A DNA stretch of 64,000 bases from Naasia aerilata. GTDB taxonomy: Bacteria > Actinomycetota > Actinomycetes > Actinomycetales > Microbacteriaceae. Below, one piece after another: positions 14,890-19,435 of the stretch. A program made the translations under genes and the position numbers. The stretch lies in assembly GCF_030296595.1 (NCBI RefSeq), contig NZ_AP027731.1, forward strand, positions 1,426,001 through 1,490,000. Reading direction: 5' to 3'. The notes under the pieces were generated by a model. The model saw only the letters and a list, made by a program, of their open reading frames with translations, was not told where the DNA came from and searched no databases. Every line of letters begins with the position of its first letter. Within the stretch, counting starts at the first letter, position 1.

Positions 14890-16740
14890 GTGAGCATGGG
14901 ACACGGCAGACCCGGAGCGCGGGGTGTCGCGTCTCGCGACTCGGACGCCCAGCGGGCCGCCAATGCCGAGGCTCCCAAGATCGAGCACCTCCTCCGCCGG
15001 ATCGCCCGCCTCTTCGCGCCGCACCGGTGGATCCTCACCCTCACCATCGCGCTCGTCCTCATCGACGCCGGGCTCACCGTGCTGCCGCCGCTCCTCACGC
15101 GGCAGGCATTCGACCGCGGGCTCTTCCCCCGCGGCGGACCGGACCTTCCTGTGCTGACCGAGATCGTGGTCCTCATGGTCCTGGTCTGGGTGCTCTCCGC
15201 CGGCCTCGGGATCTGGCAGACCTACCTCACCTCTACGGTCGGCAACAAGGTCATGGGCGCCATGCGGGTCGACCTGTTCCGGCACCTCCAGTCGATGGAG
15301 CTGGGCTTCTTCACCCGGACGAAGACGGGCATCATCCAGTCCCGGCTCGCCAACGACGTCGGCGGCGTGGCCGGCGTGCTCAGCAACACCGTGTCGAGCG
15401 TCATCGGCAACGTGGTGACCGTGCTCGCCGCGTTCACCGCGATGCTGCTGCTCAGCTGGCAGCTCACCGTGATCGCCGTGATCCTGCTGCCGGCGCTGGC
15501 GTTCGCCCAGCGGCGCGTCGGGCGGCTGCGCGCGCGGATCGCGACCAAGACGCAGGAGTCGCTGTCCGAGATGACGGCGATCACGCAGGAGACGCTGAGC
15601 GTCTCGGGCGTCCTGCTCGCGAAGAGCTTCGGGCAGGCGGAGGCCGAGAACGCCCGCTATGCGGCCGAGAACCAGAACCAGATCCGGCTCCAGGTGCGCC
15701 AGTCGATGAGCGGCCAGGGCTTCTTCGCGTTCGTGCAGATCTTCCTGTCGGTCGTTCCCGCGCTCGTCTACCTGCTCTCGGCCTTCCTGATCCAGGGCGG
15801 GGCCGACATCACGCCCGGCACGATCGTCGCCTTCACGACGGTGCAGGCGCGCCTCATGTGGCCGCTGCTCGGCCTCATGCGAGTCGCCCTCGACCTGCAG
15901 ACCTCGGGCGCGCTGTTCGCCCGCATCTTCGAGTACTTCGACCTGGTGCCGGCGATCAAGGACAAGCCGAACGCCGCGACCCTCTCGCCCGACGACCCGC
16001 TGGGGGCGATCGAGTTCCGGTCCGTCGAGTTCCGCTATCCCGGAGCGCCCGAGACGAGCCGGCCGACGCTCGACGACGTGTCGTTCCGCATCGAGCCCGG
16101 CCAGTTCGTCGCCTTCGTGGGGCCGTCGGGCGCGGGCAAGACGACCATCTCCTACCTCATCCCGCGCCTCTACGACGTGACGGGCGGCTCGGTGCTGTTC
16201 GCGGGCCGCGACGTGCGCGACCTGCGCCAGGAGTCCCTGCTCGAGCAGATCGGCATCGTCAGCCAGGAGACCTACCTCTTCCACGCGACCATCCGCGAGA
16301 ACCTGCGCTACGCACGCCCGGACGCGACCGATGAGGAGATCGCGCACGCCGCCGAGCTCGCTAACATCGCCGAGACGATCGAGTCGTTCCCGGACGGCTA
16401 CGACACGGTGGTCGGTGAGCGCGGCTACCGCCTCTCGGGCGGCGAGAAGCAGCGCGTCGCGATCGCGCGCGTCATCCTCAAGAATCCGGCGGTGCTCGTG
16501 CTGGACGAGGCGACGAGCGCCCTCGACTCCGTGTCCGAGCGCGCGGTGCAGGCGGCCCTCGACACGGCCTCGCGCGGCCGGACGACCATCGCGATCGCCC
16601 ACCGGCTCTCCACCGTCGCCGAGGCCGACGTCATCCACGTCGTCGAGCACGGCCGGATTGCGGAGAGCGGCACCGCCGCCGAGCTCTTCCAGCAGGGCGG
16701 CCTCTATGCGCGCCTCGCCGCCCAGCAGTCCGCGGCCTGA
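14890..16740 (+). CDS. ABC exporter half-transporter (membrane plus ATPase domains)
   Basis: The 616-residue protein has about 70 charged leading residues, six transmembrane segments to about residue 340, and an ATPase domain with Walker A GPSGAGKTT (about residue 411), signature LSGGEKQR (about 515), Walker B VLVLDEATS (about 536) and the switch His in AHRLST. It probably works as a homodimer exporting lipid, peptide or drug; the cargo is unknown. GTG at 14890 lies six bases after TAGGCT (14878-14883), which suggests a leaderless transcript and decides the start. It does not appear to be part of the neighbouring operons. Confidence 0.88.
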   Translation: MSMGHGRPGARGVASRDSDAQRAANAEAPKIEHLLRRIARLFAPHRWILTLTIALVLIDAGLTVLPPLLTRQAFDRGLFPRGGPDLPVLTEIVVLMVLVWVLSAGLGIWQTYLTSTVGNKVMGAMRVDLFRHLQSMELGFFTRTKTGIIQSRLANDVGGVAGVLSNTVSSVIGNVVTVLAAFTAMLLLSWQLTVIAVILLPALAFAQRRVGRLRARIATKTQESLSEMTAITQETLSVSGVLLAKSFGQAEAENARYAAENQNQIRLQVRQSMSGQGFFAFVQIFLSVVPALVYLLSAFLIQGGADITPGTIVAFTTVQARLMWPLLGLMRVALDLQTSGALFARIFEYFDLVPAIKDKPNAATLSPDDPLGAIEFRSVEFRYPGAPETSRPTLDDVSFRIEPGQFVAFVGPSGAGKTTISYLIPRLYDVTGGSVLFAGRDVRDLRQESLLEQIGIVSQETYLFHATIRENLRYARPDATDEEIAHAAELANIAETIESFPDGYDTVVGERGYRLSGGEKQRVAIARVILKNPAVLVLDEATSALDSVSERAVQAALDTASRGRTTIAIAHRLSTVAEADVIHVVEHGRIAESGTAAELFQQGGLYARLAAQQSAA

Positions 16741-16761
16741 TCTCCGGACCTCGATGCCCGC

Positions 16762-16767
16762 TAGACT
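16762..16767 (+). promoter_or_regulatory. -10 box of the Cys leader / CBS transcript
   Basis: TAGACT ends seven bases before the GTG of the leader ORF at 16775, so the transcript would begin at or next to that start codon. Confidence 0.55.
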
Positions 16768-16774
16768 CCCAAGC

Positions 16775-16810
16775 GTGATCTCCCCGACGCGCTGCTGTCG
16801 CCGCCGCTAG
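16775..16810 (+). CDS. Leaderless Cys-Cys leader peptide (putative cysteine attenuator)
   Basis: GTG ATC TCC ... TAG encodes MISPTRCCRRR. Two adjacent Cys codons followed by three Arg codons sit in a leaderless mini-ORF 68 bases before the cystathionine beta-synthase gene. Leaderless polycysteine ORFs that attenuate downstream sulfur genes according to charged tRNA-Cys are known from mycobacteria. A short hairpin (GCCTC / GAGGC, 16836-16854) follows the stop. Function is inferred from position and content; a chance ORF of 11 codons is possible but unlikely to have Cys-Cys here. Confidence 0.6.
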   Translation: MISPTRCCRRR

Positions 16811-16878
16811 GCGCCGACACCCGTCCCGCCCGTGAGCCTCGCTGTCGCTGAGGCCGGGCCGAATCCGAGAGCTCTGAC

Positions 16879-18243
16879 ATGAAGTACGCGAACACCGTCC
16901 TCGACCTGATCGGCTCGACCCCGCTGGTCCGCCTGAACCGGGTGACGGAAGGCATCGCCGCCACCGTCCTCGCCAAGGTCGAGTACCTCAACCCGGGCGG
17001 CTCCAGCAAGGACCGGATCGCGGTGAAGATCATCGACGCCGCCGAGGCGAGCGGACAGCTCCGCCCGGGCGGCACCATCGTCGAGCCGACGTCCGGCAAC
17101 ACCGGAGTCGGCCTGGCGCTCGTGGCGCAGCAGCGCGGCTACCGATGCGTCTTCGTCGTGCCGGACAAGGTGGGTGAGGACAAGCGCAACGTCCTCCGCG
17201 CCTACGGGGCCGAGGTCGTCGTCACGCCGACCGCCGTGACGCCGGAGGACCCGCGCTCCTACTACAGCGTCTCCGACCGCCTGGCTCGCGAGATCCCGGG
17301 CGCCTTCAAGCCGGACCAGTACTCCAACCCGAACGGTCCCCGCTCGCACTACGAGAGCACCGGCCCGGAGATCTGGGCGGACACCGAGGGCCGGATCACC
17401 CACTTCGTGGCGGGCGTCGGCACGGGCGGCACCATCACGGGCGTCGGCCGCTACCTCAAGGAGGTGTCCGGCGGCCGGGTCCAGGTGATCGGCGCGGATC
17501 CGGAGGGCTCGGTGTACTCCGGCGGGACCGGCAGGCCCTACCTCGTCGAGGGCGTCGGCGAGGACTTCTGGCCGAGTGCCTACGACCCGTCCGTCGTGGA
17601 CCAGGTCATCGCCTCCTCCGACGCCGAGTCCTTCGCCCTCACCCTCCGTCTCGCCCGAGAAGAGGGGCTGCTGGTCGGCGGCTCCAGCGGCCTCGCCGTG
17701 GCCGGCGCCGTCAAGGCGGCACGCGACCTGCCCGCGGACGCCGTCGTCGTCGTGCTGCTGCCGGACGGCGGCCGCGGGTACCTCGGGAAGATCTTCAACG
17801 ACGAGTGGATGCGCTCCTACGGGTTCGCGCCCGGCGCGCAGGAGACCACGGTCGCCGACGTGCTCGCCGCCAAGGCGGGCGGTATCCCCGACCTCGTCTA
17901 CGCCCTGCCCGACACCCCCGTGCGGGAGGCGATCGCCACCATGCAGCAGTACGGGGTGTCCCAGCTGCTTGTCCTCGCTACCCAACCGCCCGTGGTGATG
18001 GGCGAGGTGCTCGGCGCGCTCGACGAGCGCGAGCTGCTCGATCTCGTCTTCAGCGGCAAGGCCCAGCTCGGCGACCCCGTCGGTCACGTCGTCGGCACGC
18101 CGCTCGCGCTCCTGGGCGCCGGAGACACGGTGTCCGCCGCGCGCGCTGCGCTCGGCGCCGCGGACGCGGTGCTCGTGACCGAGGGCGGCAAGCCGGTCGC
18201 GGTGCTCACCCGCTCGGACCTGCTCTCCTATCTCTCCGCCTGA
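16879..18243 (+). CDS. cbs: Cystathionine beta-synthase (PLP) with C-terminal CBS domains
   Basis: The 454-residue protein has the PLP lysine in NPGGSSKDR (Lys 44), the phosphate/amide loop TSGNTG (about residue 74) and the glycine loop GVGTGGTITG that holds the PLP phosphate. A C-terminal pair of CBS domains (about 330-454) is expected to regulate it. It condenses homocysteine and serine to cystathionine (or makes cysteine from acetylserine). It is followed after 46 bases by the cystathionine gamma-synthase gene, giving a transsulfuration operon. Regulation by the upstream leader peptide is likely. Confidence 0.92.
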   Translation: MKYANTVLDLIGSTPLVRLNRVTEGIAATVLAKVEYLNPGGSSKDRIAVKIIDAAEASGQLRPGGTIVEPTSGNTGVGLALVAQQRGYRCVFVVPDKVGEDKRNVLRAYGAEVVVTPTAVTPEDPRSYYSVSDRLAREIPGAFKPDQYSNPNGPRSHYESTGPEIWADTEGRITHFVAGVGTGGTITGVGRYLKEVSGGRVQVIGADPEGSVYSGGTGRPYLVEGVGEDFWPSAYDPSVVDQVIASSDAESFALTLRLAREEGLLVGGSSGLAVAGAVKAARDLPADAVVVVLLPDGGRGYLGKIFNDEWMRSYGFAPGAQETTVADVLAAKAGGIPDLVYALPDTPVREAIATMQQYGVSQLLVLATQPPVVMGEVLGALDERELLDLVFSGKAQLGDPVGHVVGTPLALLGAGDTVSAARAALGAADAVLVTEGGKPVAVLTRSDLLSYLSA

Positions 18244-18289
18244 TTCCCCACCCGGCCCTCTTCTCCGGCCCGCTTCCAAAAGGACTGAC

Positions 18290-19435
18290 ATGTCTTCCGG
18301 CTTCAACACCCGTGCCATCCACGCGGGCCAGGACTTCGACCCGACCACCGGCGCCGTCACGCCGCCGATCTACCAGACCTCCACGTTCGTCCAGGACGGC
18401 ATCGGCGGCCTGCGGGGCGGCTACGAGTACGGCCGCAGCGGCAACCCCACGCGGGATTCCCTGCAGACCCTCCTCGCGTCCCTCGAGGGCGGCGCCCATG
18501 GCATCTCCTTCTCGTCGGGCCTCGCAGCGGAGGATGCGCTGCTCCGGTCGATCCTGCGGCCGGGCGACCACGTCGTGCTCGGCAACGACGTGTACGGCGG
18601 CACCTACCGGCTGATCACGCGCATCCTCGGGTCCTGGGGCATCGAGGTGGACGCCGTCGAGATGAACGACCTTGACGCCGTACGTGCGGCGCTCCGCCCC
18701 GGCTCCAGCCGGGTGCTCTGGGTCGAGACGCCGTCCAACCCGCTCATGAAGATCACCGACATCGCGGCGCTGGCCGAGGTGGGCAGGGCCTCCGGGGCGC
18801 TCGTGGTCGTGGACAACACCTTCGCCTCGCCCGCGCTCCAGCGACCGCTCGAGCTCGGGGCCGACGTGGTCGTGCACTCGACGACGAAGTACCTGGGCGG
18901 CCACTCCGACGTGCTCGGCGGAGCGGTCATCACGAACGACGACCAGCTGGCCGAGCAGGTGCGCTTCCTGCAGTTCGCGGCGGGCGCGATCCTGGCGCCG
19001 TTCGAGGCCTGGCTCACCACGCGCGGGATCAAGACTCTCGGCGTCCGGATGGAGCGGCACTCCGCCAACGCCCAGGCGGTGGCCGAGCACTTCGTCGGGC
19101 ATCCCGGCGTGGAGCGGGTCTACTACCCGGGCCTGCCGACCCATCCCGGGCACGAGCTCGCCGCGCGGCAGATGAAGGGCTTCGGCGGCATGCTGTCCGT
19201 CGCCCTGCGCGGCGGGGAGGAGGCGGCGCGGAAGCTCGCGGAGTCCACCAAGCTCTTCCAGCTCGCCGAGTCGCTCGGCGGTGTGGAGTCGCTCATCGGG
19301 TATCCGTCCGAGATGACGCACGCCTCCGTGCGCGGGACTCCGCTGGAGATCGCGCCCAACATCGTGCGGCTGTCCGTCGGCATCGAGGACGTGGACGACC
19401 TCATCGCCGACCTCGAGGAGGCGCTCCCGCGCTGA
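18290..19435 (+). CDS. metB: Cystathionine gamma-synthase / gamma-lyase
   Basis: The 381-residue protein is a Cys/Met-metabolism PLP enzyme: YEYGRSGNPTRD, the cofactor Lys 200 in HSTTKYLGGHSD, GRSGNPT and ETPSNPLMKITD. These enzymes make cystathionine from activated homoserine and cysteine, or split it to cysteine; the two are hard to tell apart by sequence. AAAGGA lies seven bases before the ATG. It forms an operon with the preceding cystathionine beta-synthase gene, so the pair can move sulfur between homocysteine and cysteine in both directions. Confidence 0.9.
   Translation: MSSGFNTRAIHAGQDFDPTTGAVTPPIYQTSTFVQDGIGGLRGGYEYGRSGNPTRDSLQTLLASLEGGAHGISFSSGLAAEDALLRSILRPGDHVVLGNDVYGGTYRLITRILGSWGIEVDAVEMNDLDAVRAALRPGSSRVLWVETPSNPLMKITDIAALAEVGRASGALVVVDNTFASPALQRPLELGADVVVHSTTKYLGGHSDVLGGAVITNDDQLAEQVRFLQFAAGAILAPFEAWLTTRGIKTLGVRMERHSANAQAVAEHFVGHPGVERVYYPGLPTHPGHELAARQMKGFGGMLSVALRGGEEAARKLAESTKLFQLAESLGGVESLIGYPSEMTHASVRGTPLEIAPNIVRLSVGIEDVDDLIADLEEALPR

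Follow-up and report, generated by a model that had tools for sequence, protein, structure and literature searches.

A candidate cysteine-sensing leader peptide upstream of cbs–metB in Naasia aerilata recurs across the Microbacteriaceae

Leader peptides rich in cysteine codons are already known from Actinobacteria. Seliverstov et al. (2005; PMC1262725, available in part, as are the other sources cited here by PMC number) predicted leaders with Cys runs before the cys operons of Mycobacterium and P. acnes and before Bifidobacterium longum cbs. In the accessible text these leaders come without terminators, and Rho is suggested, with tnaC named as its model, on evidence that the authors call weak. 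Ribosomes were seen on one Cys leader in M. smegmatis (Shell et al. 2015, PMC4633059), and a review (PMC9031893) credits Canestrari et al. 2020 with cysteine-dependent attenuation by the leaderless polycysteine ORFs of mycobacteria, short ORFs that are also treated in PMC9094748. A 2026 report (PMC13236596) describes the control of M. smegmatis cysteine genes as translation attenuation. The kind of element described here was thus predicted in 2005 and shown in mycobacteria in 2020, and how cysteine leaders work without a terminator is a question left from 2005. Our literature search combining Microbacteriaceae, leader peptide and attenuation found no paper, and none of the matches listed for Cys leaders concerns this family. 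New here are the family-wide spread of such leaders before one gene, their UGU bias and a rut-like tract behind them.

We analyzed a 64,000-nucleotide stretch of Naasia aerilata DNA (contig NZ_AP027731.1, forward-strand positions 1,426,001 to 1,490,000), hereafter the window, in which positions are counted from the first letter. It contains a sulfur/cysteine operon, cbs–metB, whose first ORF is the putative leader. The features of the locus are as follows.

16762–16767, forward strand: −10 element TAGACT, leader start 7 nt downstream; the gap is 6–7 nt in 31 of 34 family leaders
16775–16810, forward strand: predicted leaderless mini-ORF encoding MISPTRCCRRR, with a GTG start (16775–16777) and a TAG stop; each of the 9 sampled genus genomes has a Cys-rich counterpart
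16793–16798, forward strand: adjacent Cys codons TGC TGT, the putative sensing codons
16799–16807, forward strand: Arg codons CGC CGC CGC, directly upstream of the stop; 30 of 36 leaders have Arg immediately after their last Cys
16796–16819, forward strand: possible stem over the last Cys codon, the Arg codons and the stop (TGTCG.CGCC / GGCG.CGACA), tentative
16811–16850, forward strand: C-rich, G-poor tract (19 C, 12 G) from the leader stop, candidate Rho-entry region
16836–16854, forward strand: small hairpin GCCTC/GAGGC, in a stretch no more stable than shuffles (z +0.6)
16879–18243, forward strand: cbs, cystathionine beta-synthase (TIGR01137)
18290–19435, forward strand: metB, cystathionine gamma-synthase/lyase family (NF005871), which comes after cbs in all 23 inspected leader loci that extend far enough downstream

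The first-pass annotation, made from the sequence alone, had described a −10 box seven bases before a GTG, a mini-ORF ending 68 bases before cystathionine beta-synthase, and metB behind it. All of this is borne out by the coordinates, by the codons (GTG ATC TCC CCG ACG CGC TGC TGT CGC CGC CGC TAG), by the 68 nt that separate the leader stop from the cbs ATG at 16879, and by profile scores of 602 bits for the CBS protein (cut-off 510) and 655 bits for the metB product, assigned by its profile to cystathionine gamma-synthase (cut-off 513). The small hairpin that it had placed after the leader does exist, but its stretch folds no better than shuffled sequence. The gene upstream of the leader encodes an ABC transporter and ends at 16740. 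A sigma-70 scan of 16500–17100 found no −35/−10 pair, so that the −10 box is the only element marking the predicted promoter in the window. An Rfam covariance search of window positions 16500–18400 and of 10 leader loci found no cis-regulator such as a riboswitch or T-box; its five matches, all below the gathering score, belong to unrelated families.

To describe such leaders generally we used a rule comprising a TANNNT box, a gap of 4–9 nt, an ATG or GTG start, 6–20 codons and at least two Cys codons within the last seven. The rule was formulated after the first upstream regions had been read, and its weight therefore rests on the controls. It was applied to the 250 nt upstream of 111 cbs loci, which combine the full-length cbs genes of a genus search (9 of 9 genomes) with the cbs matches of a family sample (105 of 150 genomes). 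The rule matches 34 of these 111 regions on the coding strand and none of the 111 on the reverse strand, and dinucleotide shuffles yield a mean of 0.07 matches with a maximum of 1 in 100 rounds. Across both strands of the 64-kb window the only match is the leader before cbs, and in 200,854 strand-bases of leader loci all 34 matches are the leaders themselves. Two irregular leaders were added by eye to give a set of 36: L005, in which AAGACT replaces TANNNT, and L111, whose tail after the Cys run is too long for the rule. We also counted as a leader locus L120, in which the cbs match starts at residue 56, the start was set by extension and the frame is broken at codon 114. Three further irregular loci (L095, L098, L117) were excluded from the count; they carry leader-like ORFs with a misplaced start or a single Cys and are possibly decaying leaders.

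Among the 34 rule matches, the gap between the −10 box and the start codon is 6 or 7 nt in 31, 8 nt in one and 9 nt in two. Six to seven nucleotides is the spacing expected if the transcript starts at the start codon, hence our reading of the leaders as leaderless, and this spacing is strongly constrained across the family.

All 9 sampled genomes of the genus, one of them only 68% complete, have a leader before cbs. The encoded peptides (MISPTRCCRRR, MGISTCRCRRR, MLPVTCPCRCR, MRSPTCRCPRR, MTFSLPCSCR, MFRLTCRCR, MFVTCCCRCR, MFVTCCCRRP and MSVTCCCQLCA) vary in their N-terminal part and keep Cys codons near the stop. In the family, 36 of the 111 cbs genes have a leader, the two irregular ones included, and 75 lack one, so the leader is not obligatory. 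Close to the stop, the 9 of 9 genus loci and the 36 of 111 family loci each have two or more Cys codons that lie near one another but are not in every case adjacent. The presence of Cys codons in orthologous leaders, on which the first-pass annotation had made its reading depend, is hence observed in the genus, in the family and in four Promicromonospora loci. These data also dispose of a reading in which the mini-ORF is a chance product of an out-of-frame open stretch overlapping the 3′ end of the ABC transporter gene. Although the frame is indeed open from 16331 to 16810, the presence of counterparts in all 9 genus genomes and the excess of matches far above shuffles and the reverse strand refute this explanation, which we regard as extremely improbable.

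A quick tree built from 110 cbs proteins, without L120, places the nine CBS proteins of the genus on one branch. To account for the distribution of leaders over the family, no fewer than 14 gains or losses are needed, of which well-supported branches force 7; none of 500 shuffles gave so few. Among named relatives, considering the best 80 of 588, the rule matches 13 loci, several of which duplicate records of the family sample and four of which (L211, L221, L229, L231) belong to Promicromonospora of the family Promicromonosporaceae. The scans beyond the family and at other genes used a looser rule (up to 30 codons, Cys within the last 8), and the 13 named matches satisfy the strict rule as well; four named loci with merely a relaxed −10 match were left uncounted. 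With these scans no leader was found at 20 further cbs loci outside the family, at 22 out-of-family cbs loci of the named-relatives set (including L282 and L286), at 13 family loci for sulfite reductase or at 9 cysK-like loci of the genus. One named record, L204 (JABBOD010000002.1), is titled Acidobacteria bacterium and encodes a cbs product 73% identical to the window protein; its name is probably wrong.

We also tried short motifs as finders of Cys leaders. The motif TGYTGYCGYCGYTRR gave 57 matches with at most one mismatch in the own genome, against 121 for a control pattern, and TGTTGTCGYCGYTRR matched in 64 of 150 family genomes. Among 33 loci inspected from these scans (3 of 30 plus all 30), only 3 were leaders, all of them upstream of cbs, and the motif alone is useless for this purpose. 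Many of the non-leader loci share one recurring sequence that looks antisense to a conserved gene; our guess is that this gene is dxs.

Since every sampled relative of the genus retains the ORF, which also recurs across the family and precedes genes able to form cysteine from homocysteine, this tiny two-Cys ORF very probably works as a switch that turns up cysteine production under cysteine shortage. Control of cbs–metB through the Cys codons is, in our judgment, highly likely. We hold it likely too that the mini-ORF encodes a leader peptide, translated from the start of a leaderless transcript, through which charged Cys-tRNA is sensed and the cbs–metB operon attenuated.

A competing proposal would make the mini-ORF simply load or re-initiate ribosomes on cbs, with no sensing of cysteine. 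Re-initiation has been proposed in PMC4833913, in the portion available, for leaders lying 10–11 bp from the gene; the distance from leader stop to cbs is instead 60–192 nt across our 36 leaders and the conserved part is the Cys codons, so that such a loading device seems very improbable.

The Cys codons of the leaders are themselves unusual. TGT outnumbers TGC by 85 to 12 in the 36 leaders, compared with 1 to 32 in the cbs genes of the same loci and 0 to 10 in six window genes, and eleven further leaders, not among the 36, give 22 to 5. These counts point to a strong preference for UGU in the leaders, unlike their cbs genes. In the window, the leader has just two, a UGC and a UGU. Arg directly follows the last Cys in 30 of the 36 peptides; the first-pass annotation had suggested that the Arg triplet could assist stalling or mRNA folding.

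The RNA behind the leader stop is skewed in composition. Over the 40 nt following the stop, C minus G averages +0.194 in the 36 leaders. The sequence before the promoter of these loci gives +0.006 (p 3e-7), and matched windows in the 75 leader-free loci give −0.001. The shift begins at the stop itself, reaching +0.33 in the first 10 nt, and C exceeds G in 33 of the 36 leaders and in all 11 of the new ones. When the non-leader loci are split by type, the post-stop tract differs from them in each of six comparisons with p of at most 6e-7, p-values that ignore relatedness. The C-rich, G-poor RNA sought in a Rho-dependent, tnaC-like attenuator was therefore found, and a rho gene is present. Such RNA suits Rho, and we designate the tract a candidate Rho-entry, or rut-like, region.

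A Rho-dependent mechanism would operate as follows. With ample cysteine, the ribosome would complete the leader ORF and depart, leaving the C-rich RNA bare; Rho would load there and transcription would end before cbs. With cysteine short, the ribosome would dwell at the Cys codons beside the stop and cover the start of the C-rich tract, allowing transcription to proceed into cbs–metB, whose expression would convert homocysteine through cystathionine to cysteine. We put Rho as the effector at somewhat under an even chance, and as the better of two options only. The fuller proposal is more tentative still, possible rather than probable: a Rho-dependent cysteine attenuator on a leaderless mRNA, in which rare UGU codons would hold the starved ribosome so that it shields the rut-like tract, and which would alternate within the family with a GTAAC-N17-TANNNT promoter, cbs moving in both directions between the sensing of codons and another type of control.

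Classical attenuation through an intrinsic terminator would likewise account for regulatory codons near the stop of the leader ORF and for small hairpins downstream of it. No terminator-like site was found, however, in 16500–17100 of the window, and the RNA from the stop to cbs barely exceeds shuffles in structure (mean z −0.38 over the 36 leaders, +0.6 in the window, −0.13 in the 75 control loci), which leaves this mechanism very unlikely. Folding of the whole leader gives a mean z of −1.66 over the 36, a value that we discount because shuffling the leader as one piece blends its G/U-rich ORF and its C-rich tract and because the stop-to-cbs part alone gives −0.38. The hairpin over the Cys and Arg codons at the stop is tentative: its z is −0.7 in the window (16796–16819) and averages −0.77 over the 36, with 7 of 36 below −2, and it can also be drawn in L002–L004.

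The other option for the effector is translational attenuation, in which the Cys/Arg codons of a finished leader would pair with the ribosome-binding region of cbs and block initiation, a stalled ribosome keeping that region open. The M. smegmatis cysteine genes are so described in the available part of PMC13236596, and the C-richness behind the leader stop may serve pairing with the G/U-rich Cys codons rather than Rho. In the four Promicromonospora leaders (L211, L221, L229 and L231), the region of the first Cys codons shows complementarity to the Shine-Dalgarno stretch of cbs (p values 0.007, 0.030, 0.037 and 0.063), and the Cys codons of L003, one of the nine genus members, are able to pair with the ribosome site of cbs (p 0.023). 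Such pairing favours translational control in these loci, and the complementarity hints at translational masking of cbs by the Promicromonospora leaders. Over 47 leaders, the duplex between the Cys codons and the last 32 nt before cbs reaches p < 0.05 in 8 (about 2 expected), but its mean z is just −0.56, and with the last 45 nt as target the mean z over the 36 is −0.18. Downstream k-mers complementary to the Cys codons are at most weakly enriched. The window leader shows no pairing with the cbs ribosome site (z +1.0, p 0.86). A simulated stall opens the ribosome site no more than in shuffles (0.084 versus 0.074, p 0.41); comparing simulated stall with termination gives p 0.12 for the opening. 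The window thus shows no masking of the ribosome site of cbs, and elsewhere such masking turns up in some leaders but not in others. Translational attenuation is a candidate that we rate below an even chance and below Rho, and the effector may differ between lineages.

CBS and cystathionine lyase together convert homocysteine into cysteine; the metB product, a synthase by its profile, might fill the lyase role here. A sulfite reductase domain had no match in 8 of the 9 genus genomes; the ninth has one in an 878-aa frame, which we took for a nitrite reductase. The absence of the domain from 8 of 9 makes transsulfuration a plausible route to cysteine in the genus. PAPS-reductase had no match in the three genus members of the family sample. 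With matches to both enzymes mostly missing, gating cbs–metB by cysteine supply would be sensible. The idea that the leader is tied to a lack of sulfate assimilation was tried over the 111 cbs genomes and found no support, leaders being present in 4 of 11 genomes with a strong sulfite reductase match (G071, G085, G133 and G148) and in 32 of 100 others (p 0.75).

Upstream regions of cbs that lack the leader have architectures of their own. In 48 of the 111 loci, none of which has a leader (e.g. L031, L057 and L099), a TANNNT box lies 3–9 nt before the cbs start, so that cbs itself looks leaderless there. A GTAAC/T element 16–18 nt upstream of the −10 box accompanies 24 of these 48 genes, 14 of 27 others and 1 of the 36 leader loci. 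A third architecture, recognized by eye in six loci (L066, L105, L112, L116, L126 and L127), has a long 5′ UTR that begins, just past the −10 box, with a G/C-rich stem closed by an A/C-rich loop, and had no Rfam match up to E 0.5. Judging from these promoter regions, the single gene cbs looks to be under alternative types of control within the family.

With 47 leaders of one gene (many from related species), a repeated C-rich tract, a UGU bias and lineages that lose or gain the module, the set forms a natural comparison in which Rho control and ribosome-site masking become directly testable against each other.

In E. coli tnaC, the stop of the leader ORF adjoins the Rho-entry stretch and free tryptophan is sensed through nascent-peptide arrest. 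The leaders described here share the position of the stop next to a Rho-entry stretch, a candidate one in our case, and differ in that they would respond to codon hunger. The Streptomyces lividans leader peptides (PMC8079986) lie mostly on leaderless transcripts, as is predicted for the present ones, several of them without a clear terminator, whereas none of the eight is called cysteine-dependent in the part of that paper available. The metL leader among them, which precedes metNIQ and was published there as methionine-dependent, has three Cys near its stop and might sense cysteine instead.

As far as the available sources on mycobacterial polycysteine ORFs go, the resemblance extends to contiguous Cys codons and a position before cysteine-related genes, and probably to a leaderless start and attenuation by cysteine supply, both of them predicted for the present leaders from their sequences. 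The present leaders differ in belonging to another family of Actinobacteria, in targeting cbs–metB and in encoding very short peptides, most of them with Arg codons at the end, and it is for them that the UGU bias and the C-rich tract were measured. The first-pass annotation had seen the mycobacterial cysteine-attenuator logic transferred to cbs–metB in a different family; the comparison supports this view, but cbs is not a first as a target, B. longum cbs having been predicted in 2005 (PMC1262725). Those earlier leaders are alike in their Cys runs near the stop, in lacking a terminator and in the proposal of Rho. The candidate Rho sites of Mycobacterium are called not conserved in the accessible text of that study, whereas C exceeds G behind the stop in 33 of our 36 leaders and in all 11 further ones.
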